A stretch of 64,000 bases of DNA from a virus: positions 30,637 to 94,636 of the IMG/VR virus record IMGVR_UViG_3300030333_003379; one strand, written 5' to 3'. The translations under genes and the position numbers were made by a program. The first letter of the stretch is position 1. The number at the start of each line of letters is the position of its first letter. The notes under the pieces were generated by a model. That model saw only the letters and a list, made by a program, of their open reading frames with translations, was not told where the DNA came from and did not search any database. Below are positions 40,565-61,669 of the stretch, in pieces.

Positions 40565-40565
40565 T

Positions 40566-42095
40566 TCACTCACCTAGATTCTTTCTTGATTCCGCATTCT
40601 TGGCTTTAATCCGTTCTAGCATATCGCCCTCATTTTCTTCGGTGCGTTTTGTTGCTTCTTCGGATTGACCGGTAGAAGGTGTGGTGGAAACCCTTTTCAT
40701 TTCAGGAGAAGGAACATCAACCTCACCCCTTGCTATTGCCAATATGTGTTGTTTTTCGTGTTCACTCATGCTTTGTAGCATTTGTATGATTTCTTCTTCT
40801 GATGCACCTTCACGCCAAGCCATTTCTCTTAATTCATCATCTCCTTCTCTTAGATGTGCATCGTAGTCATAAGGTGGGTCTAACTCATCTCCCAATGGTT
40901 TTGACCAATCCACTTCTTCATTTTTTGAAATTGATTGTCTTATGCTGATATGTGAAATAGCCTTGTGAATACGATCATGTGAATGAAGCATATCCTCCAT
41001 GCCTTCTCTTGACCTTTGGAAATTACCTTGAGCCATCTGGTTCAATTGGTTTCTACCTCTCCTTCGCTGATTCCATGCCCATAGGTTGCTTAGACCACCT
41101 GTGGCAAGACCACCGAGAATACCTCCACCGCTTTGATTAGCCATTGCTTGTGCGTTGGCTACTTGCGACATTTGTGCTGCTTCTTGTGCAGCACCCATTT
41201 GGTTGTTGCCTTGGTTGTTGCCTTGGTTGTTGCCTCGGTTGCCACCTTGACCACCACCGCCCCAACCACCCATGTTGAATGAGAATTGTGGATTATTTTG
41301 CATCATATTTTGATTGCCACCGCCAGCCATGTTCTGTCCGGGTGCGCCACCTGCTGGTGCTTGACCACCACCTGCTGGTGCTTGACCACCACCTGCTGGT
41401 GCGGGTGCGGGTGCGCCACCTGCTGGTGCTGGTGCGGGTGCGCCACCTGCTGCTGGTGCATCTGGTTGTCCATCACCATCGGCATCTCCACCTGCGGGTG
41501 CTTGTGCAGGTGCTGCGTTTGCAGGGGGATCTGGTTGCCCATCTCCGTCTGCATCTGGTGGTGCGCCACCTGCGTCTGCGCCTCCACCTGCGGGTGCAGG
41601 GGCATCTGGTTGTCCATCACCATCTGCGTCTGCGCCTCCACCTGCTGGTGGTTGCTGATTATTTGGATTAACATCTGCCTGTCCAGCACCGGGTGTTGGT
41701 GCGCCCGGAGTTAGCGACATTTTGCCCTCCATTCTCCTAGCATCTCTTACAGCGTTTTGATTCATGTGCATTGTTCCGCCTTCGCCATACATCTGTGCAA
41801 CCCAATCACCTTTTGCGCCACCCCTTGAGCCAGCACCTGCGCTTGGGTTGTTTGCTTGCCCCCCTGCTGCTTCTCTAAATGCCTTTTGACCTTCGGGTGA
41901 TAATTTCTTGTATTGCCCTGCTTGCTTATTGCGAGACATTAAATCTCGACCTGCTGCGGTGAAGATATTTCCTCTACCTCCACCTGCTGCACCTTTACCC
42001 CATTTCTCAAGATCGAACTCGCCTTTTGCGATTGCTTCTCTTTCCATCAGAAGCCTTTGACGGGCTATCAAATCTGCACTAAATTGGGGTTTCAT
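40566..42095 (-). CDS. Low-complexity protein with DxDxDG calcium-type repeats
   Basis: The product is 509 residues. Residues about 140-260 are Gly/Ala/Pro repeats punctuated by three identical DADGDGQPD units, which look like the calcium loops of thrombospondin type 3 or haloarchaeal surface repeats (D-x-D-x-D-G). Gly/Asn/Gln/Met repeats (about 265-310) and a helical, charged C-terminus (EEEIIQMLQSMSEHEKQHIL) follow. The N-terminus is helical and basic. Calcium binding is inferred from the motif. Likely virion-associated from its operon position. Confidence 0.5.
   Translation of the reverse strand: MKPQFSADLIARQRLLMEREAIAKGEFDLEKWGKGAAGGGRGNIFTAAGRDLMSRNKQAGQYKKLSPEGQKAFREAAGGQANNPSAGAGSRGGAKGDWVAQMYGEGGTMHMNQNAVRDARRMEGKMSLTPGAPTPGAGQADVNPNNQQPPAGGGADADGDGQPDAPAPAGGGADAGGAPPDADGDGQPDPPANAAPAQAPAGGDADGDGQPDAPAAGGAPAPAPAGGAPAPAPAGGGQAPAGGGQAPAGGAPGQNMAGGGNQNMMQNNPQFSFNMGGWGGGGQGGNRGNNQGNNQGNNQMGAAQEAAQMSQVANAQAMANQSGGGILGGLATGGLSNLWAWNQRRRGRNQLNQMAQGNFQRSREGMEDMLHSHDRIHKAISHISIRQSISKNEEVDWSKPLGDELDPPYDYDAHLREGDDELREMAWREGASEEEIIQMLQSMSEHEKQHILAIARGEVDVPSPEMKRVSTTPSTGQSEEATKRTEENEGDMLERIKAKNAESRKNLGE
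41330..41600. repeat. Tandem repeats coding Gly/Ala/Pro and DADGDGQPD units
   Basis: On the plus strand, units such as CCACCTGCTGGTGCTTGA and GGTGCGGGTGCGCCACC recur in frame with the minus-strand gene. The direct repeats could allow length changes by slippage and may be hard to assemble from short reads. Confidence 0.7.
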
Positions 42096-43945
42096 CTAAA
42101 GGCCACCTTTACTAATTGTATTACTTCTAACGGAACATCCATTGATTTCGACATTTCTCGCCAATCCCCTTTACTATTTAGGATTGTTACTACATCAGAG
42201 GATGGTCTTTGGATTTGACCTGCCATAAATGCAATATCGGAACTTTTTGTTGAATCCATTTGAATGTGAGGCATCATTTTGATAATTGTCTCTTCTTGGA
42301 GAGCCATATCTATCTGAACCGTTTCAAGGGCATTTTGTATTTCTTCACGAGTGAAAAGATTGGCGACAGACGCTGCCCCGCTACCCAATGCTTCACCAAT
42401 TCTATCCATAATACCTCTCCTTTCAGATTGCAAGGCTTCGCCCGATTGTTGAGGCGGAGGCATTTGCACTTGATTAGCATTTAGGTCTTGTGGTGCTTCT
42501 CGTTGCGGAATTGGCGGTGGTTGCTCTCGTTGCGGGACAGGTGGTGCTGGTTGTCTTTGAGGAACAGGATTAGCAGGTGGTTGTGGCTGTGGTGCAGGTC
42601 GTGGTGCAACAGGTGGTGCTTCTTCTATTGGTTGAATTGGTTGTTGTGGTGGTGGTTGCTCTTGAGGCAACGGTGCTTGTGGTGGTGCGTCACCTGTAAG
42701 AATGCCATGACCACCCCTCATTACCCGTTCAAGGAATGAACCACCGGGATTTGCATCCACGAGTTCTTGGATGCTTGGCACAGTCATCCCCTGTTCCTCT
42801 GCTTTTGCTCTGATATTGTTGTATAATGCCAACGCTTGTGCTTTGTTAGACCAACCGCCCCCATATTTCATGCGATTATCTCTACTATAAGAGCCGAGAA
42901 GGTTTTTGCCGTGTTTGGATTGTGCTAGTTCGGGATTATCCAAGAAGTAATTGATGTGAGCAAGTGGATCTTCTTGCATTGGAACACCTGCTTGAGCCTC
43001 AACCATTGCTTCTGCTGGATCTTGCTCAACCGCATTAGGTGGTGCTTCTCTATTACGAACACCAAACATATGGCGATTTACAATATCTAATTGCCGGCCG
43101 TCTGCCTGTGGCAAAGGTGCTGAACCGAAGTGAGGCATTTTATTCCTTAGAGTTGAGTGTTGAACCCACGCTTGTTTGAACTTTTCAGGTGTGTTAAGTG
43201 GAGTGCCGTTTGCTGCTGCTGCATCCATCATATCAAGAATAGCCTTATGACCTTCATTATCAATATAGACAGAATTAGGATGTAGTCGGTGGCTCTCGAT
43301 ATATTCTCTTGTATTACCACCGCCCCTTATCTCTTTGAGTCCTTCTGCATATGGCCTTGCCCAAGATTCTGGGCTACGATTATACTGATCACGATTGATG
43401 GTTCGGAGTTGAACCGTTCCATCTTGCATTACTTCAAACGGATTTTTTTTGTCCATTTTTGCTGCTACACCATTTCTCCACATAGGAGTCAATTGGCCGT
43501 TTGCATCAAAAGCAGGGTCAATTTTCATAGGCATGGCCTGTGGCTTTCCTCTCGCTAATGCTTCGTTGTATTTTTCCATCATTTTGTTATTGGTAATTTC
43601 AATGGCTTGATTGATAGTAGCAGCACCACATTGGATTGCGTGATTTTTTGCTGCGATAAACGCTTCTTCTCCCCATGGCCCATGTGGGCCAGAGTAAATT
43701 ATGTCTGCTTCTTCTTTTGAAAGTCCAGAGGCTTCACCTTGATAGATAGCCTCCCACATAGCATCGGCTTCAACACCCGTCATGTGCGCCCCACCAATAT
43801 CCTCTGTGGCTCGTGGCATAGCACCAAATGAACCATCTGGTTGTGCGTAACCAATGAGGCTGTTGATTAGTTCATCCCAATCATAATGACCCAGACCTTT
43901 CTGAATCACGAATTGGTCAAGAACCGCCCAACCAGCAATACTCAT
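42092..43945 (-). CDS. Large hydrophilic protein with Pro/Gln linker
   Basis: The product is 617 residues, coupled to both neighbours by ATGA-type overlaps. Residues about 1-400 are mixed helix (KEEADIIYSGPHGPWGEEAF) without a recognised family. Residues about 425-500 are almost only Pro, Gln, Ala, Val and Arg, a disordered linker. The final 100 residues are helical (REEIQNALETVQIDMALQEE). The N-terminus (MSIAGWAVLDQF) has a possible remnant of the tag. One of the run of long internal proteins before terminase. Confidence 0.5.
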   Translation of the reverse strand: MSIAGWAVLDQFVIQKGLGHYDWDELINSLIGYAQPDGSFGAMPRATEDIGGAHMTGVEADAMWEAIYQGEASGLSKEEADIIYSGPHGPWGEEAFIAAKNHAIQCGAATINQAIEITNNKMMEKYNEALARGKPQAMPMKIDPAFDANGQLTPMWRNGVAAKMDKKNPFEVMQDGTVQLRTINRDQYNRSPESWARPYAEGLKEIRGGGNTREYIESHRLHPNSVYIDNEGHKAILDMMDAAAANGTPLNTPEKFKQAWVQHSTLRNKMPHFGSAPLPQADGRQLDIVNRHMFGVRNREAPPNAVEQDPAEAMVEAQAGVPMQEDPLAHINYFLDNPELAQSKHGKNLLGSYSRDNRMKYGGGWSNKAQALALYNNIRAKAEEQGMTVPSIQELVDANPGGSFLERVMRGGHGILTGDAPPQAPLPQEQPPPQQPIQPIEEAPPVAPRPAPQPQPPANPVPQRQPAPPVPQREQPPPIPQREAPQDLNANQVQMPPPQQSGEALQSERRGIMDRIGEALGSGAASVANLFTREEIQNALETVQIDMALQEETIIKMMPHIQMDSTKSSDIAFMAGQIQRPSSDVVTILNSKGDWREMSKSMDVPLEVIQLVKVAFR

Positions 43946-45783
43946 CTCTTAGACACCCCATGCACTACATCACGAATCGTGGGATCTTCAAAGCGATATG
44001 GTGCTTGTAGTTCATCATCTAATTCTGTTCCACCTTGTGGGTCGCTACATCCACCTGCCTTGTTACCCCTCTTGGCTTTATCATCAAGTTCGGGATTACT
44101 CTTGGTTAATTTCTCCACGGCTTGTAACAAACGCTTGAGATCCTTCTTCATATCTAACAATTGACTTCGATTGAATCCCTGCAAATCTTTTCCAGATACC
44201 TGCAAGGTTGCTCTTTTGCTAATATCCATCTTCACAGTTAGAGGGTCGCCTCCTAATGGCTCACCTGCTAATGCTGCCTCTCTTGCGGCAGCCTTGTTTG
44301 GTTTGAATTGTGAAAGTGATGTTCCCTTCGGTGCGCCAGCACCAAAATGGGGGTTATGTGGTAATTTTGTGCCTTTACCACCGATACCGATGGTTTGCAC
44401 TTTATCGCCAGAAAGACCACGAGTATCAGCGTGAGCAGAATGCCCTCTCGGTAGCGCACCCATCTGTCTGCGGAACTTCTCGGCAGCCAATTTACGCTGA
44501 TATGCTACGGGATCACGGATTCTCAATGGAATACCAGATGCCCTTGGATTTGCACCCAACATCCTTCTTGGGGAGAATGCTTGTTCTCTTGGATTGCGTG
44601 AAATGTTCTGTTCGATATTTTTCTCACGCCTCTTGGTTTTACCCTTGATATCACGGCTGGCTTCCTTCTTACCACGCTTCATCTCACGCTTACGCTTGCG
44701 CTTGCGCTTGATCTTGCTTTTCTTTTCCTCCGCCTCACCTTCTTCATCTTCCTCATACTTACGCCCACGCTTCTTGCGTTTGCCTTTTACGATATCAGAC
44801 AAGAATAAAGTTGGTGGCATTTGAGATTTGTTTGCATCTTGCCATAATTTTGATTCTTCTGGACTGTAACCGAACTCACCCACGCTATCATGGAGGATAT
44901 TTTCATATTGACTTGGATCATCACTATACCTTTCATCATCCATCGGGAATGCTGCCCCTCTTGCTGCTATATCGTGTGCAGGGGTATGCACAAGTGGTGT
45001 TAGATCTTCAACACCATATGGTGCATCACTCATGGGGTCATTTTCCACTTTCTCTTCAAGCATTTGGTGAAACCATTCCTGTGGTGGCATAGCACCGTCA
45101 TTTGCTGCTTGATATGCTCGGATATCTTGAGCGTCTATGATTTCATGTAAAGGAACACCAACTGCTGCCTTTTCCCCTGTTTCCCTATGTATTCCAAGAC
45201 CTGCTAAACCACCTACAAATCCTTGAGCAAGCCAACCCGGTTCTTCTTGATTCATTTCATCAATATCTTGGGCAGCCTGTTCAATTGCTCTCCGCCTAAC
45301 TTCGTCAAATGGATCATTCTTCAACATTGACCACGCATCTTCAAATGCTTCTTTACTTCGACTAAAAATCAATCCCGGCCCTTCTCTACGAACCGGGCCA
45401 ACCCCTGCGCCTTGTGATATACCAATGCCGTCAGAAGCATGACCCATATCCACACCCATGGCGGATTCAAGTAATTCGCTTTCATTCTCCATCATTGGAG
45501 TATTGTTGATTGTTTCAGCCATTTCCTCTGGCTTTATGCTGATATGAGGCAATTCACCCTCCATTTCACGCATTGCTCTCTTTTTTCGTTGCTTCGGATC
45601 TAACTGCTCTCGCATTTCCTCACTAGCGGTTGATTGGCGGTTGTAATGAGATAATCCATCAGAATCCTCATTAGGATTCACATCATAATCCCCTAGCATC
45701 TCTCGTGGTCGAAAACCACCTGTATGCTCTTGGATGCGAACTGCTTCTTCGTTCACACCCCTTCGGGGATTTGCCATAGGCAC
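43942..45783 (-). CDS. Highly basic virion-type protein with the A-F-x-x-A-W tag
   Basis: The product is 613 residues from a GTG at 45783, which has GGAGGGG six bases upstream; ATG 45777 is the alternative. A clear tag copy (EAFEDAWSMLKNDPF) lies at 145-159. Residues about 333-390 are dominated by Lys and Arg, interrupted by a short acidic patch, and look histone-like and DNA-binding. The C-terminal 100 residues are helical with ISKRATLQVSGKDLQG. The basic block suggests condensation or ejection of packaged DNA; no family recognised. Confidence 0.55.
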   Translation of the reverse strand: MPMANPRRGVNEEAVRIQEHTGGFRPREMLGDYDVNPNEDSDGLSHYNRQSTASEEMREQLDPKQRKKRAMREMEGELPHISIKPEEMAETINNTPMMENESELLESAMGVDMGHASDGIGISQGAGVGPVRREGPGLIFSRSKEAFEDAWSMLKNDPFDEVRRRAIEQAAQDIDEMNQEEPGWLAQGFVGGLAGLGIHRETGEKAAVGVPLHEIIDAQDIRAYQAANDGAMPPQEWFHQMLEEKVENDPMSDAPYGVEDLTPLVHTPAHDIAARGAAFPMDDERYSDDPSQYENILHDSVGEFGYSPEESKLWQDANKSQMPPTLFLSDIVKGKRKKRGRKYEEDEEGEAEEKKSKIKRKRKRKREMKRGKKEASRDIKGKTKRREKNIEQNISRNPREQAFSPRRMLGANPRASGIPLRIRDPVAYQRKLAAEKFRRQMGALPRGHSAHADTRGLSGDKVQTIGIGGKGTKLPHNPHFGAGAPKGTSLSQFKPNKAAAREAALAGEPLGGDPLTVKMDISKRATLQVSGKDLQGFNRSQLLDMKKDLKRLLQAVEKLTKSNPELDDKAKRGNKAGGCSDPQGGTELDDELQAPYRFEDPTIRDVVHGVSKR

Positions 45784-46202
45784 TATCTGCCCCTCCGCAA
45801 CCTACTGTATGTTCCCGCTACACGCATAGGAATGGAAAGATACCATTGAGCGAGCATAGGGGTTCTTGAATAAGCACGAGCCAGAGGCATAAACGAAGTT
45901 GTGAATAGTGCAAGTGTTTCCTGTGCCTCTTTTTTGGAAACCTCTGGCACTCGATTTTCTAGATCTGCAAACATCATACGGATACACATGATTTGCCCAT
46001 ATGCTACACCTGCTGCATCTTCTTGAGAAGTGAGATTAAACGCATCCATGCCCTCTGTCCAGACCTTTACTACTTCTTCAAGGCCATCACACATCAAAAG
46101 TGCATCTTCAATAGAAAACACTACATTTTCTCCATTTAGCAAAGAACCGTAATCTGTGTCCTTTAGCATCAAAGATGGAATAGTGCGGTAATCATCAGTC
46201 AC
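45783..46202 (-). CDS. Helical hypothetical protein
   Basis: The product is 139 residues, mostly helical (IEDALLMCDGLEEVVKVWTE; EAQETLALFTTSFMPLARAY), with an Arg-rich end (SRLRRGR). It shares its stop region with the start of the basic 613-residue protein, so the two are co-translated. The small size and place upstream of terminase leave several possibilities open; no signature is visible. Confidence 0.5.
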   Translation of the reverse strand: MTDDYRTIPSLMLKDTDYGSLLNGENVVFSIEDALLMCDGLEEVVKVWTEGMDAFNLTSQEDAAGVAYGQIMCIRMMFADLENRVPEVSKKEAQETLALFTTSFMPLARAYSRTPMLAQWYLSIPMRVAGTYSRLRRGR

Positions 46203-46206
46203 AGTA

Positions 46207-46593
46207 TCACATCCCTTGTTTCATCGGGCAACCCGTAATTGATAGAGTATCGTCATCTAATCCACAAGTCGGGCATATTTTCCCACCCTTTTCGATTGCA
46301 CATGGTGATTTCACCACAGACCAACCTGTGCGGAATGCTCGGTCATTGGGTGCAGATTTATTCAACAACTGTGTCGTTTCCATTAGAGTAAGATTTTCAA
46401 TTTGATCACCATTCATACCTTCATACATAAGGTGTTGGTAAATGGGTCCTAACCGAATGCCGTCATTTTCAAATGAATATGTGGGCGAATCGTTTATCAT
46501 ATTCTCCACTTCTCTTAGAGTAAGATTTTCGATATCATTACCACTCATGCCCTGCGCCATAAAAAATCGGTAAATAGGGTCTAAATCAGCCAT
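46207..46593 (-). CDS. Protein with two internal repeats, the A-F-x-x-[AG]-W tag and a zinc pair
   Basis: The product is 128 residues from ATG 46593 (MADLDPIYRF), which overlaps the stop of the upstream gene. Two repeats of about 30 residues are clear: DPIYRFFMAQGMSGNDIENL at 5-24 and GPIYQHLMYEGMNGDQIENL at 49-68, each followed by T-L-x-E helices. A tag copy (RAFRTGWSVVKSP) lies at 85-97. It closes with KICPTCGLDD and GCPMKQGM cysteines. The repeat family is unknown to me. It sits in the zinc-finger cluster before the large tagged proteins. Confidence 0.6.
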   Translation of the reverse strand: MADLDPIYRFFMAQGMSGNDIENLTLREVENMINDSPTYSFENDGIRLGPIYQHLMYEGMNGDQIENLTLMETTQLLNKSAPNDRAFRTGWSVVKSPCAIEKGGKICPTCGLDDDTLSITGCPMKQGM

Positions 46594-47296
46594 CTTCAAG
46601 CACCCCCGCTTCGGATAATGCTTGACGCAGAACACGCCATTCTTCTGGTGATTTTTCGGAGAAGTGTGCTTGGATTACAGTCAAGACGCTCACCTGCTCG
46701 TTAGACCCAATGGCTTCGGCTCTTTCAAGATATTCCCCAATATCACTCAAAGTATCCCTAATTTCCTTGTGTAACTTAACTGCCGTGTCTAAACCTTTGT
46801 AATCCAAAGTGCCTTCTTCATTCTGTTCCTCTCGTAGTAAATCCACATGATCATTGAACAGGCTATTCAGCCGTTGAAGATTATTTTCTGTTTGGCGCAT
46901 AGCACCTTGAACGGTGCTAATCGTCTGTGGTAATGTTTCGATTGCCACTTGACGCTGAATAATAGGTTGCACATGGTTTTGCATATGATGTGATAAGGCA
47001 TCAGTAGTAATTTCTAGATCATCAGCCATAGCATCGAGTGGAACTATGTGATTGAGAATACTTTCCTCAATTGTCGCTCTTTCAGGATGAGTGCATAGAG
47101 GGCATTCGGAATTACTGTTATTGTGATACTCACCTGCGTGTCGCCTCATGTGCCTGTGAGCAGTTCCTTCTGCCCAACCTTGTTGAGCATCTAATTCGGC
47201 TTCTTCAAGAAGTCCAAGACGGATATTTCGCTCAAAGGCATCTCTGTCTGGATGTTGGCAGAATACACAGTTCCGTCTAGTCCTACGACCCACCAT
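46586..47296 (-). CDS. Double zinc-finger/HTH protein, candidate small terminase or DNA-binding factor
   Basis: The product is 236 residues. Two similar fingers are visible: NCVFCQHPDRDAFERNI with H-x3-H partners (residues about 9-53) and ECPLCTHPERATIEESI with H-x3-H partners (about 64-107). Each is followed by a helix-turn-helix-like segment (MADDLEITTDALSHHMQNH). The rest is a long helical region (ALRQTENNLQ-type, residues 110-210) suited to oligomerisation. DNA recognition with a coiled oligomer would fit a small terminase subunit, but this is inference; a transcription factor is equally possible. Confidence 0.55.
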   Translation of the reverse strand: MVGRRTRRNCVFCQHPDRDAFERNIRLGLLEEAELDAQQGWAEGTAHRHMRRHAGEYHNNSNSECPLCTHPERATIEESILNHIVPLDAMADDLEITTDALSHHMQNHVQPIIQRQVAIETLPQTISTVQGAMRQTENNLQRLNSLFNDHVDLLREEQNEEGTLDYKGLDTAVKLHKEIRDTLSDIGEYLERAEAIGSNEQVSVLTVIQAHFSEKSPEEWRVLRQALSEAGVLEDG

Positions 47297-49423: not shown

Positions 49424-50149
49424 TCAAATTAAGTGAATAGTGTCCACTATCGCTCTTTCGACATTAAGGCCGTATTGTGCCGCAATAGCCTCAACATTTG
49501 TTGGGATACCTGCTCGCCTTAATCTTCTCAATTCTTCTTGGAAAGGTAATACCATCCTATACTGCCTTTTCAAACCCATAGACCACATAGCATCAGCCTC
49601 TGGTGTCCACCACACATCCATTTTGTTTAACAAGAGGCAAACTACCTTCGGTTTCCACCCCTTTGCCTTTTTCCGCATTTTGCGACTAAATGTGGAAGGA
49701 TATTTGGTGTTCGTCACTAAATCCACTATGTATTGAAACCCTGCAACTGCATCCATGGCTGCCTGTGGCGAAAGAAGTATTCTTTCATCAACCACATAGA
49801 AAATCACATCTCTGTGGTTCTCAACAATATCTTCTGCCCACATATTTCGATATTGTTGCTGACCGCCAATATCAGCAGATGTAATAGGAACACGATCCCC
49901 TTTCCAGCGAACCTGCTTCTTTGTGCTTCTTGGCATTTTGAATGAGCCGTTTTGCACAGCATGGCTAGTTCGCAATTCTAAGGGTATGGGGTCAATATCA
50001 CCGGGAACGGTAAGATATTGATCTAATGTGGTCTTTCCTGTAAGGCTTGGGCCGTATATTCCGACTTTATGTGGCCTTAGCAATCTATACACATAGGTCG
50101 CAATCTGGGCAGACCCTAGCAATAAATGCCCTGCAAACATCCAAGACAT
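49424..50149 (-). CDS. Arf/SR-beta-like small GTPase with N-terminal membrane segment
   Basis: The 241-residue product has GTPase motifs in the right order: G1 GPSLTGKTT (33-41), G3 DIGGQ (93-97) and G4 NKMD (175-178), with a switch region between. A hydrophobic N-terminal helix (about 3-22, LLLGSAQIATYVYRLL) suggests membrane attachment. This architecture and the DIGGQ motif, rather than DxxGQ of Ras, recall the Arf/SRP-receptor beta family. The insertion between G3 and G4 is longer than in Arf. It is coupled to membrane-protein genes upstream. Membrane targeting of virus assembly or host interference is inference. Confidence 0.75.
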   Translation of the reverse strand: MSWMFAGHLLLGSAQIATYVYRLLRPHKVGIYGPSLTGKTTLDQYLTVPGDIDPIPLELRTSHAVQNGSFKMPRSTKKQVRWKGDRVPITSADIGGQQQYRNMWAEDIVENHRDVIFYVVDERILLSPQAAMDAVAGFQYIVDLVTNTKYPSTFSRKMRKKAKGWKPKVVCLLLNKMDVWWTPEADAMWSMGLKRQYRMVLPFQEELRRLRRAGIPTNVEAIAAQYGLNVERAIVDTIHLI

Positions 50150-51057: not shown

Positions 51058-51064
51058 TTAAATA
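51058..51064 (+). promoter_or_regulatory. TATA-like box, probable leaderless promoter of the plus-strand pair
   Basis: TTAAATA is centred 27 bases before the ATG at 51088. Archaeal TATA boxes lie about 26 bases before transcription starts, so the transcript would begin at or near the start codon, and no Shine-Dalgarno is seen there. On the opposite strand the same site (TATTTAA) could serve the RHH operon with a leader of roughly 15 bases. Confidence 0.5.
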
Positions 51065-51087
51065 GCAGGGCGGTATCGGGTTTGTAT

Positions 51088-51606
51088 ATGAGCGCACCCA
51101 ATCTCGCAGAAGCCGTAACTGCTATGAGATCGTATCAAGATGTTTTGAGAGCGAATCCCTCTAACCCGAATATGATGGCTGCGTGGATACAACGCAATAC
51201 AGACGAGGCTCTTGCAGGTGATTTCTCACATAATGCTGGTATTGCAATTCTTCATTATTATGGACACCCGCTATACGGCAATATCAGCAATGTGCCACAA
51301 GATGCACAACAATGGATATCTCTTATCCAACCCGCAGAGGGCATCATAGCAGATGAGGAAACATGGATTGATATGCAAATTGCAGGGCAAACAGGTAGTG
51401 TAGCCACTCGATTATTCATTTCAGACCATTCGTGGCTTACTCAATGGGCTAACGCAAACAATTTCCCACCTAACACTCCAATGTCCTATATTGTGAATTA
51501 CTTGATTAGCAGATTAAGATCCTGTGAAGGTAACAATGGCCCAACAGGTGCAAACGGTATTTCGCATGAGGAATATGAACTACCAAATCAAGAGGAAATC
51601 CCCTGA
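51088..51606 (+). CDS. Hypothetical protein upstream of the lyase-like gene
   Basis: The product is 172 residues. ATG 51088 (MSAPNLAEAVT) is preferred to the TTG at 51082. It is mainly helical (LAEAVTAMRSYQDVLRANPS, TPMSYIVNYLISRLRSCEGN) and acidic at the end. There is no recognised family and no membrane segment. It shares a probable promoter with the HMG-CoA-lyase-like gene 46 bases downstream and runs against the flanking minus-strand operons. Early expression is possible. Confidence 0.55.
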   Translation: MSAPNLAEAVTAMRSYQDVLRANPSNPNMMAAWIQRNTDEALAGDFSHNAGIAILHYYGHPLYGNISNVPQDAQQWISLIQPAEGIIADEETWIDMQIAGQTGSVATRLFISDHSWLTQWANANNFPPNTPMSYIVNYLISRLRSCEGNNGPTGANGISHEEYELPNQEEIP

Positions 51607-51652: not shown

Positions 51653-52495
51653 ATGAAACCCATTGAGATATATGAAGTTGGCCCAAGGGATGGCTTACAA
51701 GCACTTTCTCATACTGTTTCTATTGAAGATAAGGTTGATTTAATCGAATCTCTGGTCAATGGTGGGTTGATTGATATTGAAGTGGGTTCTTTTGTTCACC
51801 CCAAATTAGTTCCAAGTATGGCGGATTCGGATGAAGTATTCAAGGCAGTATGGCACTTAGATGCCTGTCTTGGAGTCCTTGTGCCAAATCACAGGGGAAT
51901 TGAGAGAGCCAAAAAGGTCGGTGCAAAATACTACAACATATTCTTCTCCCCTACTCATTCATTCAATGTAGCCAATCACGGTAAATCATACCAAGAAGTG
52001 GTTGATCACTATTATCAAGCACTAGAAGGAATACCAAAAGAGAATATCCGAGTATATCTTTCAATGGCATTCAGATCTAACAAAAAGGAAATGAGTAGAG
52101 CAATGAAAGATGCTTGCGCCCTTGGCACTACTGTGGTATTATGCGACACAGATGGAACGGCAACCAATGAACAAGTGTATCACACTATACGCAGAGCAAA
52201 GCAACATACCGACAATATAGCCCTTCATCTTCACAAAAGCACCAAGTTATTCCAACATATTGCTACTGCATACGAAATGGGGGTCACTCAATTCGATAGT
52301 AGCATAGGAGGCATGGGTGGTTGCCCCTTCGTCAAGGGGTCAGAAGCAAACCTTGCAACAGAAGCATTAGTCAAGTGGTGCAACCAAATGCACATCCCTT
52401 GTGGTGTATCTCTGGAGGATTTAGAACCTGCTTTAGAAATTGTAAAGCGAATCAAAGTCCCTCATCAACCCGTCTTGGTTGAATCCCCAAATTAA
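51653..52495 (+). CDS. HMG-CoA-lyase-like enzyme (DRE-TIM family)
   Basis: The 280-residue product covers a complete TIM barrel. Active-site pattern residues of HMG-CoA lyase are present: R12, D13 and Q16 in GPRDGLQ, E43 in IEVGSF, the metal ligands H192 and H194 in LHLHKS, C224 in GGCPFVKGSEAN, and N233 nine residues later, the same spacing as in the human enzyme (C266/N275). FSPTHSFNVAN and LCDTDGTAT also fit. The reaction would be HMG-CoA to acetyl-CoA plus acetoacetate. Its 3' end overlaps the convergent methyltransferase gene by 44 bases. Other DRE-TIM lyases remain possible. Confidence 0.82.
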   Translation: MKPIEIYEVGPRDGLQALSHTVSIEDKVDLIESLVNGGLIDIEVGSFVHPKLVPSMADSDEVFKAVWHLDACLGVLVPNHRGIERAKKVGAKYYNIFFSPTHSFNVANHGKSYQEVVDHYYQALEGIPKENIRVYLSMAFRSNKKEMSRAMKDACALGTTVVLCDTDGTATNEQVYHTIRRAKQHTDNIALHLHKSTKLFQHIATAYEMGVTQFDSSIGGMGGCPFVKGSEANLATEALVKWCNQMHIPCGVSLEDLEPALEIVKRIKVPHQPVLVESPN

Positions 52496-54857
52496 AAGGC
52501 AATATAGGGGTCATTGTTTCATCATCATATCCTAAAGTGCCTCCACCAAATAACTGAACGGGTCTATTTTTCTTACCATGTGCATGAGGGTTGAATGATA
52601 TCGGGACACCACCCCAACAAGCACCACAACCCCTATCTTGGCAACTACCACCTAATTGAGAAGTGGGGCAAATGTGAATACCTTCACCAGAAGCACCTAC
52701 AAACGAAGGTGCTATCTGTGGGTGAGATGTTAATTCACGGAATCTATCTGTTAGGGCTGGCAAACCTGCTGCTTCATTTGCATCATCATCTAACCCTTGA
52801 CCGACATATGGTGCGCTCAATGATACTTTGAGGCTTTCAGGTATTGCGGTATCCCAATCTCTTACTTTCATATATTCATGGAGGGCGTTTTCCTCACGAG
52901 TTGGCAGCCAAACATCAGATTTGATGGGGCTTCTTGCCATAATGTGTTTGACGGCATCGGCAATTAACGATAAGTGTCTGGCTCTATCCTTTACTTTTCT
53001 TCCTTGTAAATCACCTGAATCTAACATTCTAAATCTTGGATCTCCAAAGTCCAAAACAGATGCAGGTATTCGGTTTGCTAATGCAGAAGCATATTCAATT
53101 GTTCCTTCTTCATCAGGCATTCGTAACGCAGCAGCATTACGCCAATGTGCAATTTGCTTGTTGTTCAAACGATATTTACCTTGATCGTGAGCATAGCAAT
53201 TCTCACAGGTCGAACCAGCACATCTCCGTAAAGTGCTACCAACCCTACATAATTGAGTTGGGAATCCTTGAGAACCACCCGGCATTTTAGATGTTGAACC
53301 AAACGGACTACCAAGTATTCTGTGACCTTCTGAACGGAGATTTTTTCCACCTGTAATGTCCTTGAAATCAGGTAATAACTCATCTAACCCCTCAAGAGGG
53401 TAACTTACATTGTGTTCTCGGTCAAATCGTGCAATGGGTTCAGGGTTTGCCTCATTCCAAAGGTAAATCTGGTCTTTGTTGTCTTTGTATGGTGTTCCAC
53501 CAAACCTCTTATCCCAATGCAATAAATCATCAGGGTCGCCTAATGCTTTGTTGAGAGTATCGGCCAATTCCGTTAAGTCATTGACGATAGATCTGCGGAT
53601 AATGCCTTGTGGGTCTATCTCATCGGGGAAGAATGCAGCCTTTCCTAACCACAAAGATGGGTCAAAGGACTCATCGAATCTTTCCTCCCATTTTTGCTGT
53701 TCGCCTTCTGTGCCTACAAATTGCTTATCTGGATGGTGTTGAAACCACCTTGCAGCATCCATATCGGGTATGTTAGCAATAGCAATTAGTTCTGGTTTAA
53801 TACCACGACTTGCTGCTCTTGTTCCAGCAGTATCCATCCTACGATTCAACAATGTTTTGAATCCTCTATCACGATACATTTCAGCAACATTAGGACTGTT
53901 GAATGCTACAATAGGCAAACCATCTTCTGCTAATTCACCTAATTGATTTGCCAATGCTTCTTGACCTGCATCCCCCATATTGATACCATAAGATGCTGCC
54001 TCACCCGCATATGGTGGATCAACGGCAGCAAGGTCTTTTCTCGGATTCAAATCTAGATTCTCAAAGAACTCATCAACAGGGCCGGGCTTCATTGTCCAAT
54101 CCTCCATCAAAGGCTGATAATGCTGATAGTTCCACACATCAGCATAAGGGCCAAAAGCCCCTCTTGTTTGTGTATAACGACCTGTTTCTGGATTATATCG
54201 AGTAAAGGCATTGGTTGATGTTTGTTGAGTCATTAACCATAATTGGGCTAATCTTTGCCAACCATCTAAATCTAATTCTCCACTATTCGCCATATCAATC
54301 ATGTAATTGAGGCTACCTTCTTGTGGGTCTTTTGTGCTACCACGCAGAGTCGGGCCGGTGTAAGTGCTAAAGTCAGCACCACCGTGAGTAAAATCATCTC
54401 CAAAGAATGTGGGTTTAGATACTTCTCCCGGTGTTGCAACTTGCTCTCGCTCTTTACCACCCTTTACTGCACTTGCATCAATACCGTGGCCTGTGAACTC
54501 ATGCCAAGGCAATTCTAGTCCACCGGGTGTATCACGCATTTCCTCATACGCATTCATCAAATGAGTATCAGCATCACCAACTACAACTTCTTTTGCTGGC
54601 ATATTGAGAGCGATATTCGCCCCACCAAGCGCAGGGTCAAGAAGTCGCTGTGCGCCAACTGATTGCATTGCATCTCTTAATGGCCCAAGGTAATGTGACT
54701 TCGCTTTACTACCTGCCCACTTTAATGGTGAAGGGATACGAGTTTTACCTGTAATATCCCCCCCTACTTTACGAGCAATCGCTGGCGTTATGCCTAAACC
54801 ACGAACCCCCATGGCTTTTGCGATCTCTATCTCATCTTTAACAGGATCATTGCTCAT
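52452..54857 (-). CDS. Adenine DNA methyltransferase fused to gp88-like Cys domain
   Basis: The product is about 801 residues from ATG 54857, with GGGGGAT upstream and overlap with the preceding stop. Residues 41-375 resemble a Dam/D12-class N6-adenine methyltransferase: SPLKWAGSK (43-51), LLDPALGGANIAL at the SAM site and the catalytic DPPY (280-283). After a spacer, residues about 510-795 look like the phage gp88 family: CAGSTCENCYAHDQGKY (546-562) and, near the end, ICPTSQLGGS then CGACW. The Cys sets probably bind metal. The fusion is unusual. It may protect or mark viral DNA. Confidence 0.7.
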   Translation of the reverse strand: MSNDPVKDEIEIAKAMGVRGLGITPAIARKVGGDITGKTRIPSPLKWAGSKAKSHYLGPLRDAMQSVGAQRLLDPALGGANIALNMPAKEVVVGDADTHLMNAYEEMRDTPGGLELPWHEFTGHGIDASAVKGGKEREQVATPGEVSKPTFFGDDFTHGGADFSTYTGPTLRGSTKDPQEGSLNYMIDMANSGELDLDGWQRLAQLWLMTQQTSTNAFTRYNPETGRYTQTRGAFGPYADVWNYQHYQPLMEDWTMKPGPVDEFFENLDLNPRKDLAAVDPPYAGEAASYGINMGDAGQEALANQLGELAEDGLPIVAFNSPNVAEMYRDRGFKTLLNRRMDTAGTRAASRGIKPELIAIANIPDMDAARWFQHHPDKQFVGTEGEQQKWEERFDESFDPSLWLGKAAFFPDEIDPQGIIRRSIVNDLTELADTLNKALGDPDDLLHWDKRFGGTPYKDNKDQIYLWNEANPEPIARFDREHNVSYPLEGLDELLPDFKDITGGKNLRSEGHRILGSPFGSTSKMPGGSQGFPTQLCRVGSTLRRCAGSTCENCYAHDQGKYRLNNKQIAHWRNAAALRMPDEEGTIEYASALANRIPASVLDFGDPRFRMLDSGDLQGRKVKDRARHLSLIADAVKHIMARSPIKSDVWLPTREENALHEYMKVRDWDTAIPESLKVSLSAPYVGQGLDDDANEAAGLPALTDRFRELTSHPQIAPSFVGASGEGIHICPTSQLGGSCQDRGCGACWGGVPISFNPHAHGKKNRPVQLFGGGTLGYDDETMTPILPFNLGIQPRRVDEGL

Positions 54858-55383
54858 CGGGATTATCCCCCATTTCATCAAGAAGTTTCTGGTTGGCTTC
54901 TTGGACTATACGCATTTGCTCTGCAAACGCTTCGTTATACATGGGATTATCATATACTGTGATACCCGGACTACCTGCTGACTTATCTTCATTAGATGGT
55001 GTTCCACTTGGCAACATATGGGGCAAAATGTCCTCTGGTGGTATATTTTCATTGGATACCCAAGAAGCATCTGCACTCACTTCATCGGGATTCATACCCA
55101 ATATAGCAAGCATCATTGGACTATGATCCATTCCCGGTTTCATTCTTGGGTCGCCTTCATCACGCCAGAATGGAACAGTAGCGATTTTAGGAGAACCCAT
55201 TCTACCAAAGGAAACCCACCTTCGGGCTATTTCGGGGTCTTTTGAAGCATATACTTCACCAAAATTACTCTTGATGCCTTCGTGGAGAATGCCACCTTTA
55301 CCGTGAAGATTTTCTTCGGGAGTAGCATGGTAATACCACGGTGCTTTCACAACCGCCCAACCTGCATCAAATGCTCTACTCAT
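54847..55383 (-). CDS. ADP-ribosyltransferase-like protein with N-terminal A-F-x-x-[AG]-W tag
   Basis: The product is about 178 residues. ATG 55383 (MSRAFDAGWAVVK) follows GGGGGAG and gives an exact copy of the recurrent tag at the N-terminus. After it comes WYYHATPEENLHGKGGILHE and GEVYASKDPEIARRWVSF, the H-A-T-P / G-I-x-x-G / V-Y-A-S pattern shared by ADP-ribosyltransferase-fold and tRNA 2'-phosphotransferase-like proteins. The remaining part is Pro/Asp-rich. Catalytic residues cannot be assigned with confidence. If active it would modify a host or viral protein or nucleic acid. Confidence 0.5.
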   Translation of the reverse strand: MSRAFDAGWAVVKAPWYYHATPEENLHGKGGILHEGIKSNFGEVYASKDPEIARRWVSFGRMGSPKIATVPFWRDEGDPRMKPGMDHSPMMLAILGMNPDEVSADASWVSNENIPPEDILPHMLPSGTPSNEDKSAGSPGITVYDNPMYNEAFAEQMRIVQEANQKLLDEMGDNPDEQ

Positions 55384-58300
55384 CCTTCTCCCCCTTCGGT
55401 TTCCTGTAAAACGCATCTGTTAAGAATTGTGGGTCAATTTCCTTTTCATCATCATTTTTTAACCTACGATTCGCTATTTCGCTTAAAATATCATTGAGGG
55501 TTTTCCTTTTCCGACCCATATTTGCATCATCTGTTGGTTTTTTCAAATGTTTCATGTATTCATCCAAATCCCATTTTGCTCTGTTATGCCCACTTCTGGA
55601 TACATTTTTGTATTCCGAACTAAATGGTTTATCACCAAACCAACCGCCTTCATATGCCATTTCCTCATCTTCTAATGGAACACCTATGTCGTGCTGGCTT
55701 TCATCTTCATCAACAACTCGATGCGTATCTAAATCCATAAATGCCTGTGCTATGGCACGAGTTACAGGATCATATTCGTGCTTTTCTCGTGGAATAGGCT
55801 TTGATGGTCTTTCTCTTTTGCCCTTTGAACCTCTCCTTTTCATCCATATACCTTTAGGCATATCTTCATCTGCGTAGTAAGATTCGTGATCACCACCGAT
55901 TAGATATTTGTATTGTGCTTCTGGTATTGAAATACCTTCTTTTTCTGCTATATCTCTAATGAAAGCCCAATCACTAATTTCAGGGTTAGTTACACCTGCT
56001 CTTGGCCCGACTCTATGTGTTTCACCATATTTGCTTTTACTCCTAAATGCCTTATCTGGATCATCCAATACATTCCATATTGACGGGTCTTTCATCCCTC
56101 TAGCAACCCTTCGCATTATTGGCTTACCTGCCAATGGGTGAGGCACTAATTCCTCTTTTGGATAAAGCCCTTCTTCTGGCTTCCTCCAATCAGAAATCCG
56201 ATCAAGTGTGCTTTGTATTTCGCCATGGGGGTCATCGAAAGATTGTTCCTCCATATCATCATCTCCCCAACTTTCATGGCGTTTCCATTTGCGGGTAACG
56301 CCCGGATATCGGTAATCTCTAGGGTTGTTAGGAACTCTTTCTAATGCTTGTGTTGGTATTAAACCATAATACAAAGAAGGGAATATATTCTCTGCAAACC
56401 TTTCGCCTCGTGGTCGGGGTTCATTGTAGTAACTTTGTGCTTCTTTTTGCCAATACTCTAATGCTGCTTGATGTTCTGGATTATCAGGCTCAAACTCTGT
56501 GAAACTGTAATCACTCAACATTTTATCAGGATACACTTTAGGGCGACTGATAGAATCAGCATCAGTAATTCCTAACTTTTCTGCCAAATCACTAATCTGT
56601 TGCTTCATAGCAGCCTTTTCTGCTGCTACACCTTCTGCCCATGCCCGTTCATTTGGGCCGGCTTCTGTGTAATCATCGTTGCCCCACCATATTCTATGGT
56701 CATCCCAATCTTTCTCTGCTGCTGCGGTGAATACATCATTGTATCTAGATCTCTCCCAATCACCAGCCCATCTGCTTTTCTCATCCCATGTATCTTTCAA
56801 TTTGTTATACAAATTGAATAACTGCTCATACTCATCTTTTTGATCACCGAACATTGAAAAATTAGGTCTTTTGCTTCTAGGTATTTCCAAATTAGTATGG
56901 AAAGGCCACCTAGATTGTTGTTCGGGCATCCAATCATATGTTAATTCTGTATCTGGATCCACCCAATCAGGATTTATGCTTGTTCCATAACTACTTGTTG
57001 GCATTTTTATTTGGTCAGCCACCATTGACGCTAGTATTCTTCTCAATTCAAGACGACCAATCTCGCCTTTGATGTTTTCAGGTAAATCCGCAATAGTGCG
57101 TGGTAATGGTGCATTACCTGCAACTACTTCATCAAAATGAGCATCTAATGCTCTTAACGCATCACCAGATAATTCCAACGCAGCCTTTCTGCGCCCTGCG
57201 GGTCTATCTGGGCGGTTGAGATAACCTTCTGGGTCTGTTTCATACATTGCTGAATCTGATAATATCCCTGCCCCTTGATTGATAATTGCATTCCTCAAAT
57301 TACGATAAATACGCTCTTGAGGGGGCAACAGTAACTTTTCTGCTTCTGGCTCTGGAGTTGGTGTCCAACCCTCATCCATACCAATAGGTGGCCTTCTTTC
57401 TGGTGGAATACCCATAATGCGCCTTAATTCATGTGTGTTCATACCCCATTTATTACTTGGTTTAAGCGCACTTGCCATCCTTTTTGCGTTAATCGGATCT
57501 TCAATACCCCACTTCTTCTGTGCAGCCTCTACCATTTCCAAATGCTTACGCCTTTGTTCCTGTTCTACATCTCGATGGTGTAACCATTTACCCATGGCAT
57601 AACCGGGATTTTGAGGATATTCCGCAGTATATGCCGCCTTTTCATGCCAAGCCGAAGGGCTTTGACCCCACTTTTTGGTTTGGCCTTGTGTTGGATTAAG
57701 AATAGCGGGTTCTCGTAAAATGTGCTTCATGGCCGCAGGGTTATCCATGAGAAAAGCCATTTTATCGCTAATTTTATCAGAACGAGTAGTTGGATTATCG
57801 AAATCCCTATCGAATCTCGTATTAGAAGCGTATCTTGGATCTAATTTGATACGATTCAAAGCACCCTGTGTTGCTCTATGACCCATCTCATGCACAATAG
57901 TATCAATAATATCAGGCTCAACATCATCTAGCCATTCACTATACCTTCTATTGTAATCTTCCATTGCTTCTTCATAACTTTCCCGACCCATAGAAGCCTC
58001 TTGCACTATATCCCCATCTTCATCTAACACCTCTAACTCATTTCTCCATTTACCTGCTATTCCGTAATCTTCATCATATGCGCTAGGGTCTGCCCATGGC
58101 CTTTCATTCTCACCACCTTTCCATTGGAAAAAACTCTTATCTGGTTTTTCAGGCGCACGACCTGTTCTCCACCCTGAACCTTCTGCAAAAGGTGAAAGAT
58201 ACACGGCTTGTGCTAATTCTCTCGGTGTAAGATAGCGAGTTACTTCTTGACCGTCAATAACATCAGTCCTTGTTTCGCCTTCAAAGTTATCAGGATCAAA

Positions 58301-58447
58301 GTCATCAGGTAATGTTTGAACCATGTTTATTGTGTCTGGATGAAATGACGACCAACCGAGATAATCCCCCTTATCCCGTCTGCCTGTGGGTTTGAGAATG
58401 AAATCGGCTTTCATTATTTTCGCCAAGGCTTGTGGTGTAAGACCCAT
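55376..58447 (-). CDS. Large protein with an HExxH zinc-protease motif
   Basis: The product is 1023 residues, with its start overlapping the previous stop (TAATG). Residues 184-192 read TIVHEMGHR, an HExxH zincin motif inside a helical segment (DIIDTIVHEMGHRATQGALN). The third zinc ligand is not obvious. The remainder is hydrophilic with many Trp, Tyr, Pro and acidic residues and no recognised domain. The N-terminus has LAKIMKADFILKP, at most a weak echo of the tag. It could be a maturation or host-directed protease or a virion protein. Confidence 0.5.
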   Translation of the reverse strand: MGLTPQALAKIMKADFILKPTGRRDKGDYLGWSSFHPDTINMVQTLPDDFDPDNFEGETRTDVIDGQEVTRYLTPRELAQAVYLSPFAEGSGWRTGRAPEKPDKSFFQWKGGENERPWADPSAYDEDYGIAGKWRNELEVLDEDGDIVQEASMGRESYEEAMEDYNRRYSEWLDDVEPDIIDTIVHEMGHRATQGALNRIKLDPRYASNTRFDRDFDNPTTRSDKISDKMAFLMDNPAAMKHILREPAILNPTQGQTKKWGQSPSAWHEKAAYTAEYPQNPGYAMGKWLHHRDVEQEQRRKHLEMVEAAQKKWGIEDPINAKRMASALKPSNKWGMNTHELRRIMGIPPERRPPIGMDEGWTPTPEPEAEKLLLPPQERIYRNLRNAIINQGAGILSDSAMYETDPEGYLNRPDRPAGRRKAALELSGDALRALDAHFDEVVAGNAPLPRTIADLPENIKGEIGRLELRRILASMVADQIKMPTSSYGTSINPDWVDPDTELTYDWMPEQQSRWPFHTNLEIPRSKRPNFSMFGDQKDEYEQLFNLYNKLKDTWDEKSRWAGDWERSRYNDVFTAAAEKDWDDHRIWWGNDDYTEAGPNERAWAEGVAAEKAAMKQQISDLAEKLGITDADSISRPKVYPDKMLSDYSFTEFEPDNPEHQAALEYWQKEAQSYYNEPRPRGERFAENIFPSLYYGLIPTQALERVPNNPRDYRYPGVTRKWKRHESWGDDDMEEQSFDDPHGEIQSTLDRISDWRKPEEGLYPKEELVPHPLAGKPIMRRVARGMKDPSIWNVLDDPDKAFRSKSKYGETHRVGPRAGVTNPEISDWAFIRDIAEKEGISIPEAQYKYLIGGDHESYYADEDMPKGIWMKRRGSKGKRERPSKPIPREKHEYDPVTRAIAQAFMDLDTHRVVDEDESQHDIGVPLEDEEMAYEGGWFGDKPFSSEYKNVSRSGHNRAKWDLDEYMKHLKKPTDDANMGRKRKTLNDILSEIANRRLKNDDEKEIDPQFLTDAFYRKPKGEKDE

Positions 58448-59994
58448 TAAGCAACCCTCCTTGGTTGAACATTGCGGAATATGTTTTCCATGATATTTGG
58501 ATTTAGGGTATTACCTAGTTGAGTATCAATGATATTCTGTCGCTTCTTCTTAGGTGGATTGACTTGGAATCCTTGATTATCCCTTTGAGGGAAATTGAAT
58601 GCTTTTGCTTCTTCTGGTGTCCAGCCCTGTATTTGCATGACTTCGGGGCGAGTTAATTTACGAACATGGGTTAAAGCAGGTCTGTGATGGGTTACAGATT
58701 CAGATGGGCCACTAAGTGGATTGATATGTTTCCATGCAAAACCTCGCTTTTCATCATTCCACGGTGATCCGCCTCTCCCCGGATTGATTGAACCTCCCAT
58801 ACTCAATGTTGGAACGGATAGTAAATCCATTGCATTAGGGGCATTGCCTTGTTGAAGTAAGTAATCAATTTGCGCTTGGCGATCACCTTCTTCCCACTCT
58901 TGTTGCATATACGGGAAGTGGTCGTTTATGCTACGATAATTTCCTCTACCCATGATTTGTGGTGTAGCCTTAGAGCCGTGAACCGCATACATTCGTTGTC
59001 TTACGGTTGGAGAACCAAACATACCCGATTCAAGAAGTGGACTTTCTCTCGCCATGGTTTTGAACTCTTGTGAGATGTTTTTATCACGGAGTAAAGGTTT
59101 GAGGATTTCAGGTGATTGTTCCACCGACATAACCACAGGGGCATTCTCCCATCCCATTACTTCACTCATAATATCGTCAGCAAAGCGCATACCTTCCATT
59201 GCACCACTCACATCAACATCTTTCGATTGATTAGAGCGAGCGATTTTCTTGCATGATGGTGATTGATGTAATGCCCAACTATCCAATCCTGTGGTGGCAT
59301 CGTGAATATGACCTAATGTATCGTCAAGTGTTTCTGGACTAAACCATTGTTGTATATGCTTACCCGGTAGATTCTCATTGAGTGTGCGAATTGACTCATC
59401 CCAACCATCCATAGCCAACACAGGATTCGCCCCAACTCGCATAGCAGCCGTTTCGGGCGCACCCATACCAGAAAATAGAGTTACCAATCCTTCAAAGGGG
59501 GCATCATCGGGCTTATCTTCATACATTGAATACTTCAAAATAGCATCCCAACCCGCTTCAAATGCGTCACTAGAGGCTAAATGCCCCATTGACCTTGACG
59601 AACAGGCATCCCATGTATCCAATACCATTTGGGCTACTTTCTTCTCTTGATCACTACCTTGTCGTAACCATAATTCCATTTTCTCTTGTAATTCAGCACA
59701 AGACCACCCCTCATCACCATTGGCTACCGCTTCTGCTAAATCAAACAACATTTGAGTGAAGAAGGGGTCTGAAAGGGGATTTGAGCCTTCTTGCTTGGCA
59801 TACTCAAACATCCATGACGATAATTCCTCTCGTGCCTCTGCACAACAGGGATCTTCAATTTCATCAGTAAGGGTATCCAAATCTTCTATGGTTCGCTCTG
59901 GCTCATACATCACAAAAGGTTGAGATGGCTCTGGATTTACATTGATTCTTGGTGAGCCGTCAGGTCGTTTAAGACCAAAGTTATCACTCACCAT
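58447..59994 (-). CDS. C5-cytosine DNA methyltransferase with tagged N-terminus
   Basis: The product is 515 residues. An N-terminal helical Cys-containing domain (about 45-135) and a tag copy (DAFEAGWDAILK, 143-154) precede the catalytic domain. Methyltransferase motifs in order: I LFSGMGAPE (173-181), IV SPSCKK with catalytic C248 (PSC in place of PPC), VI VEQ (291-293), VIII TVRQRMYAV (330-338) and X QLGNTLNP near 490; RPEVMQIQGW supports motif IX. SAM-dependent cytosine methylation of DNA is therefore likely. GGGGTGA precedes the ATG and lies in a hairpin. Confidence 0.8.
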   Translation of the reverse strand: MVSDNFGLKRPDGSPRINVNPEPSQPFVMYEPERTIEDLDTLTDEIEDPCCAEAREELSSWMFEYAKQEGSNPLSDPFFTQMLFDLAEAVANGDEGWSCAELQEKMELWLRQGSDQEKKVAQMVLDTWDACSSRSMGHLASSDAFEAGWDAILKYSMYEDKPDDAPFEGLVTLFSGMGAPETAAMRVGANPVLAMDGWDESIRTLNENLPGKHIQQWFSPETLDDTLGHIHDATTGLDSWALHQSPSCKKIARSNQSKDVDVSGAMEGMRFADDIMSEVMGWENAPVVMSVEQSPEILKPLLRDKNISQEFKTMARESPLLESGMFGSPTVRQRMYAVHGSKATPQIMGRGNYRSINDHFPYMQQEWEEGDRQAQIDYLLQQGNAPNAMDLLSVPTLSMGGSINPGRGGSPWNDEKRGFAWKHINPLSGPSESVTHHRPALTHVRKLTRPEVMQIQGWTPEEAKAFNFPQRDNQGFQVNPPKKKRQNIIDTQLGNTLNPNIMENIFRNVQPRRVA

Positions 59995-60124: not shown

Positions 60125-61669
60125 ATGCAGGGGCAACCAATCTTCATCATGCAGCAAGGCACGACACAAGAACAAGGCAAAACGGCACAGTCGAATAATA
60201 TCGCTGCCGCTAAAGCAGTAGCACAAGCAGTTCGGACTACACTAGGGCCAATGGGCATGGATAAGATGCTAGTGGATGAAAGTGGAGATGTAATCATCAC
60301 AAATGATGGTGCAACCATTCTTCAAGAGATTAACATTGAACACCCAACGGCTAAGATGATTATTGAAATCGCTAAAACACAGGAACAGGAATGCTATGAT
60401 GGCACAACATCTGCTGTGATTGTCGCAGGTGAACTACTCAAGCGTTGTGAGGAACTTATTGATCAGAATGTTCATCCCACAGTCATTTGCCGTGGATTGC
60501 GAAAGGGAATGTCTTTCCTTCTATCAGATTTGAAAAATTATGAAATCAATGATATTGATTTGGATAAGATTGCCAAAACCGCCCTTACAGGCAAGTCGGC
60601 TGACTCATTCAAGGACATTATCTCTGCGATTTGTGTTGAAGCGGTGGAAAACACCGACAGCCTTGAAGATATCCGTATTACCAAGGCACTTGGTGGTTCA
60701 GCAGGGGATAGTGAGATAATCAACGGTATTATTCTCGATAAAGAGCGTTGCCACCCCGCAATGCCTTCTCATCTTCAACCATCCACCGATGGTTGGGCTA
60801 TTGCCCTAATTGATAGTAATCTTGGAGTAAAGCAGACCGAAATGGAGGCAAACATCCAGATTACAGATCCCGCACAGATTGAAGCGTTCTTAGCAAAAGA
60901 AGAAGCCGAATTGCAAAAGATGGCAGAAGATTTCCATGACCATGGTGTGCAAGTGGTTCTGTGCCAGCGTGAAATTGATGATTTAGTCAAGTATCACTTT
61001 GCTAAATTGGGCATCATTGCCGTTGAGAAGGTAACAAAGAGCGATATGGAAGCCGTAGCAATGGCTTCTGGTGCCACAATTATCAACAACATCAATGATA
61101 TGAGTAACGATGCCAAAGGATTCTTTGAAGAAGTTAAACAGGAAATGATTGGTGAAATGCCTATGCTATTCCTTTACCATGGTCAAACACCTGCCATGAC
61201 TGTATTACTTCGTGGCCCTACTACACACTTCGTTGAGGAAATTGAAAGAGCCTTTGATGATGCAGCAGGTGTGGTCAAGGTCGCCAAAGATGACGGAGTT
61301 ATCCTTGCAGGTGGAGGATCTACTTACGCAGGTCTATCCAATTCACTAGCAAATCATGCTAATCACCATGGTGGCAGAGAAGGAATGTCTATGCTGGCAC
61401 TATCAGTAGCACTTGAGTCCATTCCACGCACTCTAGCAGAGAATGCAGGTCTAGACCCGGTTGATGAGATGATGATGCTTAACCAGACACATTCAGCAGG
61501 TAACAAGTATATGGGTATCAACATCGAAGTCGGTGGCACTATTGATATGAGAGATCTAGGTGTCTATGAGCCAAAGCGTGTGGTTGAGCAAGCACTCAAG
61601 TCAGCAGTTGAAACTGCAATCATGGTGCTTCGTATTGACGACATAATTTCATCACGAAAGACCGACTAA
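60125..61669 (+). CDS. Group II chaperonin (thermosome subunit)
   Basis: The 514-residue product is clearly a thermosome: [15 protein letters not shown] aligns with the family start, NDGATIL (60-66), DGTT (92-95), [33 protein letters not shown] and [16 protein letters not shown] follow in order, and the end [19 protein letters not shown] is typical. It folds proteins in the cytosol using ATP. Two points differ from the usual: LGPMGMD in place of LGPKGMD and YDGTT in place of GDGTT, near the nucleotide site. The usual Gly/Met-rich tail is absent. It lies alone on the plus strand. Confidence 0.95.

Follow-up and report, generated by a model that had tools for sequence, protein, structure and literature searches.

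The window analysed here is the whole 64,000 nt stretch from positions 30,637 to 94,636 of IMG/VR record IMGVR_UViG_3300030333_003379. It carries an intact gene for an HMG-CoA-lyase-like enzyme (Table 1), which is the second gene of a two-gene cassette. The nearest relative (L011) has a homologue of the upstream ORF directly before its lyase gene, and there the two ORFs overlap. In both genomes the lyase lies on the opposite strand to the late genes, in a cassette with an ORF of 172–174 aa, so that for the window the initial annotation of a plus-strand gene facing late genes on the other strand is correct; in most relatives it is on the same strand as its late-gene neighbours. The gene had also been credited with its own promoter, and this was not supported. 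The lyase showed no sigma-type excess, and the archaeal TATA pattern that was tested did not match; it is second in the cassette and the TATA-like box TTAAATAG precedes the first gene instead.

The lyase gene is convergent with the gene of an 809-aa protein, with a 44-bp overlap; the N-terminal part of this protein has a weak match to N6-adenine methyltransferases (D12). A 241-aa protein encoded on the minus strand contains a GxxxxGKTT P-loop, has weak similarity to Arf GTPases and is conserved at 31 of the 81 loci that carry a lyase.

Table 1 Features of the window and of related loci (positions are those of the window unless a locus is named)
Feature	Position	Strand	Remarks
HMG-CoA-lyase-like enzyme	51653-52495	+	Intact ORF, ATG start, 280 aa
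Codons of R12, D13 ... Q16 (human R41, D42, Q45)	51686-51700	+	Catalytic Arg and metal ligand Asp; invariant in 79/79 clade rows
S137-N143, SMAFRSN	52061-52081	+	Site of deleted GCPYEG loop; alignment with relatives and human enzyme
H192-L-H194 metal ligands, then K195	52226-52237	+	K195 position: Asp/Asn in cellular enzymes; H, E, K or Q in viral clade
Glycine-rich catalytic loop G219-N233	52307-52351	+	C224 (human C266) and metal ligand N233 (human N275); alignment
Upstream cassette ORF	51088-51606	+	ATG at 51088 (alternative TTG start 51082); no known domain
Candidate TATA-like box TTAAATAG	51058-51065	+	Ahead of first cassette gene; from sequence only, no match to tested consensus
241-aa P-loop protein	49424-50149	-
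809-aa protein	52452-54881	-
Second cytosine-methylase-like gene	58447-59994	-	Weak C-terminal match
Strong cytosine-methylase-like gene	L002:15253-17046
Thermosome gene	60125-61669		Thermosome match
FDxAWxLLK motif ORFs	38226-38672, 38672-40573, 43945-45801, 46210-46674, 54850-55419	-	Window motif search
FDxAWxLLK motif ORFs	L012:5320-11240 and other lyase loci		Motif search

The source record is 99,897 bp (ca. 99.9 kb) long. Outside the window its plus strand encodes an RFC-like AAA ATPase, a family B polymerase (PolB), a PD-(D/E)XK nuclease and a cytosine methylase and gives a weak match to the large subunit of archaeal primase; the terminase, portal and head protease are on the minus strand. 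Magroviruses (order Magrovirales, viruses of Poseidoniales) are described as having genomes of ca. 90–110 kb with PolB, an archaeal-type primase and a PD-(D/E)XK nuclease, and with the replication module on one strand and the morphogenesis module on the other (PMC12999244). The source record agrees with this description in size, genes and strand arrangement, the primase match being weak, and on its gene content the genome is magrovirus-like, of the Poseidoniales-virus type. The nearest named records to its PolB are haloarchaeal tailed viruses, and the 15 best records listed for PolB, like those for the terminase, include no annotated magrovirus. Shared genes link 79 of the 81 lyase loci into one network. 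A chaperonin of the TCP1/cpn60 (thermosome) family is present in 28 of 50 lyase-bearing records and a family B polymerase in 23, many of these records being fragments. In five of them (G014, G015, G048, G049 and G050, the records of L032, L033, L085, L088 and L089) the chaperonin is weakly TCP1/cpn60-like (E 1e-38 to 1e-47) and the polymerase B match is split or interrupted; these are possibly a distinct lineage of lyase-bearing viruses.

When compared with family models, the lyase matched the HMGL-like family of Pfam (PF00682, 4.3e-25, residues 4–261), and by far the best NCBIfam model was hydroxymethylglutaryl-CoA lyase PRK05692 (2e-56, 191 bits). This score is below the curated cut-off of 246 bits, which is exceeded by four of eight sampled viral relatives; the window's subclade falls below it. 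The top sequence match in the PDB was the Bacillus HMG-CoA lyase 1ydo (5.8e-38), and comparison with PHROG gave no convincing match. Three other DRE-TIM identities were tried against curated models and rejected: homocitrate synthase (39 bits, cut-off 413), isopropylmalate synthase (38 bits, cut-off 484) and 4-hydroxy-2-oxovalerate aldolase (36 bits, cut-off 229). The C-terminal domains of the two synthases are absent from the 280-aa single-domain protein. All three known enzymes share the barrel fold, a DRE-type motif and the HxH metal site with the window lyase but have no GGCP loop, and their extra domains are missing from it.

An AlphaFold model, built from an alignment of 47 viral proteins, had the HMGL barrel fold with high confidence (pLDDT 95.9, pTM 0.92). 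Its 14 best fold matches in the PDB were all HMG-CoA lyases, from human, Bacillus, Pseudomonas, Brucella and others (E 4.7e-26 to 9.4e-22), after which the matches dropped to methylthioalkylmalate, isopropylmalate and homocitrate synthases near 3e-14. Profiles and fold comparison together rule out another DRE-TIM family, the members of which are far weaker matches by both sequence and fold; the placement that would have refuted the initial annotation was therefore not seen. Thus the HMG-CoA-lyase-like gene of the initial annotation is borne out by the Pfam and NCBIfam models, the 1ydo match, the fold and the residues described below, and its viral, archaeal context is likewise supported.

The roles of the active-site residues are taken from the human HMG-CoA lyase, for which they are established. 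In the alignment, human R41, D42, Q45, E72, S75, N138 and R165 correspond to R12, D13, Q16, E43, S46, N108 and R133 of the window lyase, and human D204, T205, H233, H235, C266, N275 and E279 to D165, T166, H192, H194, C224, N233 and E237. All 14 are kept, as had been claimed for every active-site position that could be aligned. They include the metal ligands Asp, His, His and Asn (D13, H192, H194 and N233; human D42, H233, H235 and N275) and the catalytic Arg41, Glu72, Asp204 and Cys266 of the human enzyme (R12, E43, D165 and C224), the last of which lies in the glycine-rich loop. Across the viral clade, R12, D13, Q16, E43, N108, R133, D165, T166, H192, H194, C224 and N233 are each found in no fewer than 78 of the 79 rows. 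The gene product would be a functional metal-dependent C–C lyase of (S)-HMG-CoA lyase type, most likely binding Mg2+ or a similar metal via D13, H192, H194 and N233, with R12 and C224 most likely the key catalytic residues.

The known TIM-barrel (S)-HMG-CoA lyases (HMGCL/MvaB/LiuE; PDB 2CW6, 3MP5, 1YDO, 2FTP and 1YDN) share with the window lyase their fold, length, metal ligands, catalytic Arg, Cys, Glu and Asp, and glycine-rich GGCPF/Y loop. The viral proteins are, however, only 30–39% identical to the cellular ones, form a clade of their own and are encoded at a late viral locus rather than in a leucine operon. They also differ next to the active site. The position of human S201 is Val in 79 of 79 viral rows, and the Asp/Asn-Thr pair after the second metal His (human D236-T237) is replaced clade-wide, mostly by His or Glu and then Gly; the window has K195-S196 here. 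In addition, a GCPYEG loop retained in most viral members is deleted in the window, L011 and related viruses, so that two features conserved in cellular HMG-CoA lyases, the Asp/Asn-Thr pair and this loop, are both missing from the window lyase. The sequence FRSN, considered as a homocitrate-synthase-like motif, is a remnant of this deletion in the window's subclade.

The fold and the residues suggest that the window lyase is likely to have HMG-CoA lyase chemistry, probably converting HMG-CoA into acetoacetate and acetyl-CoA, where substrate and activity are what we infer. Given the two conserved positions changed clade-wide and the loss of the GCPYEG loop in the window's subclade, HMG-CoA is a putative substrate. 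Because of the clade-wide substitutions, the clade might instead have shifted to another substrate, such as a different 3-hydroxy-acyl-CoA or a 2-hydroxy/oxo acid, with retro-Claisen or aldol chemistry kept, perhaps in a virus-specific pathway for a cofactor, glycan or modified base. The S201V change and loss of D236-T237 next to the metal-binding His, the loop deletion and the long stem of the clade (1.42 changes per site) would all fit such a shift. Nevertheless, the equivalents of R165, N138, T205, D204, S75 and C266 are kept, half of the eight sampled relatives score above the NCBI cut-off for HMG-CoA lyase, and there is no constant partner gene to make up a pathway, and we consider both the changed substrate and the virus-specific pathway distinctly unlikely.

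Relatives were sought by scanning 2.9 million IMG/VR contigs with alignment queries. These found 196–199 viral contigs that encode a relative of the lyase, none of which had been found with a single-sequence query. The nearest is 64–65% identical to the window lyase and the other 79 of the best 80 are 39–51% identical, and the best cellular proteins reach at most 39% among the matches listed. The 34 viral rows of an 89-protein tree all group in a single clade with 100% SH-aLRT support, on the long stem mentioned above. The clade stands beside the cellular HMG-CoA lyases and outside the other DRE-TIM enzymes, but its point of attachment among the cellular enzymes is weakly supported; the outgroups are very long. 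Judged by pairwise dN/dS of 0.04–0.21 (pairs with usable dS only), the clade evolves under purifying selection.

A reverse scan with a leucine-operon enzyme from Paracoccus gave 79 of the best 80 viral contigs at only 32–40% identity. The exception, a 5.2-kb contig at 54% identity, is probably cellular in origin. All other newly placed contigs fall inside the viral clade, which means that the viral HMG-CoA lyases in the collection are essentially one family. Two other matches were set aside: an 'Acinetobacter phage' lyase that belongs to a bacterial leucine operon, which was kept as a reference, and a human-gut 'Bacteriophage sp.' protein (L007) that groups with bacterial HMGL-like proteins.

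HMGCL has already been reported in magroviruses, as a sporadic auxiliary metabolic gene of leucine degradation (Xu et al. 2023, PMC10160649). The virus group and the annotation are the same as here, as far as can be compared by description, and the annotation as HMG-CoA lyase is not new. What is new is one large, conserved, stand-alone, archaeal-virus-specific clade with its own active-site signature; compared, again by description, with the sporadic leucine-related gene of that report, ca. 199 contigs carry it, usually on the late strand. The published assignment supports the possibility that the lyase completes the breakdown of host leucine, or of branched acyl groups, for energy and acetyl-CoA, lipid synthesis not being the target. 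The reaction would be the same, and the cell can make use of both products, acetyl-CoA and acetoacetate. Against this, neither enoyl-CoA hydratase nor CoA transferase was found in any of the 28 larger lyase-bearing records, and bacterial phages have no equivalents except for the one short contig, although bacteria that degrade leucine are common hosts in the sea. We therefore regard a role in leucine breakdown as unlikely.

HMG-CoA synthase was also absent from those 28 records, HMG-CoA reductase from all 50 lyase-bearing records, and thiolase was not found in the source genome of the window. As the genes tested for leucine breakdown, ketone bodies and the mevalonate pathway are all absent, the lyase must draw on a host pool. 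HMG-CoA is an obligatory intermediate of the mevalonate pathway in archaea and the entry to isoprenoids. Together these two points make the initial suggestion of a drain on the lipid precursor a reasonable one. The enzyme, from an old virus-specific clade, would tap the HMG-CoA of the host, the standing pool of which in archaea would be that of the mevalonate pathway. Splitting it into acetoacetate and acetyl-CoA would stop the synthesis of new isoprenoid lipids during infection and return the carbon as acetyl-CoA for virus production.

The drain is plausible from the stand-alone gene, the restriction of the clade to archaeal-type viruses among those tested and the presumed substrate at the entry to isoprenoids. 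The clade-wide changes beside the active site and the late-gene location in most relatives argue against certainty. It also counts against the favoured explanation that magrovirus-like contigs are not uniformly lyase-bearing: the gene is present in 10 of 25 contigs picked by a magrovirus-like polymerase (six of nine among those of at least 80 kb), a sample that is tilted because the polymerase query was derived from lyase-bearing viruses. On balance we lean slightly towards an HMG-CoA lyase of a viral clade that draws on HMG-CoA of the host mevalonate pathway. That draining the lipid precursor is its main purpose is put forward only tentatively. It is rather unlikely, if conceivable, that this archaeal-host-tied clade is a widespread viral means of attacking, or tapping, the entry to isoprenoid lipid synthesis, by which membrane carbon is turned into acetyl-CoA late in infection.

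To our knowledge, there are hardly any known cases of archaeal viruses acting on the lipid metabolism of their hosts. In the present case an enzyme family that would, if an HMG-CoA lyase, act on the precursor of all archaeal membranes occurs in numerous tailed viruses whose hosts are abundant marine archaea, and in almost no other viruses of the collection scanned. Viral cleavage of HMG-CoA thus becomes a question that one protein and one substrate suffice to test. If HMG-CoA is cut, viral infection would redirect the lipid carbon of an archaeal group that is among the most abundant in the ocean; if it is not, this clade points to a substrate new to a well-studied fold.

The position of the lyase on the late strand, including between terminase and portal, is later than expected of a metabolic takeover gene. 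The order terminase–lyase–portal was seen in 15 contigs, with an HNH-like gene adjoining the lyase, and no constant partner gene lies beside it across the viral loci. Such a position could suggest that the protein is expressed late or carried in the virion and has a structural or moonlighting function, its enzyme residues being a relic. However, the catalytic residues are invariant, dN/dS is low, and none of the lyases has the tag F-x-x-A-W-x-L-L-K that is frequent among the neighbouring proteins, all of which makes a virion role highly improbable.

This tag was observed in its general form, F-x-x-[AGST]-W-x-[LIVMA]-[LIVM]-K (FDxAWxLLK), in 201 of 1528 ORFs of the viral lyase loci, against 0.2 expected from shuffles, a count of which some is shared descent because homologous ORFs were counted separately. 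The motif lies mostly at residue 3–5 of otherwise dissimilar proteins, and may serve as a tag for virion packaging or for targeting.
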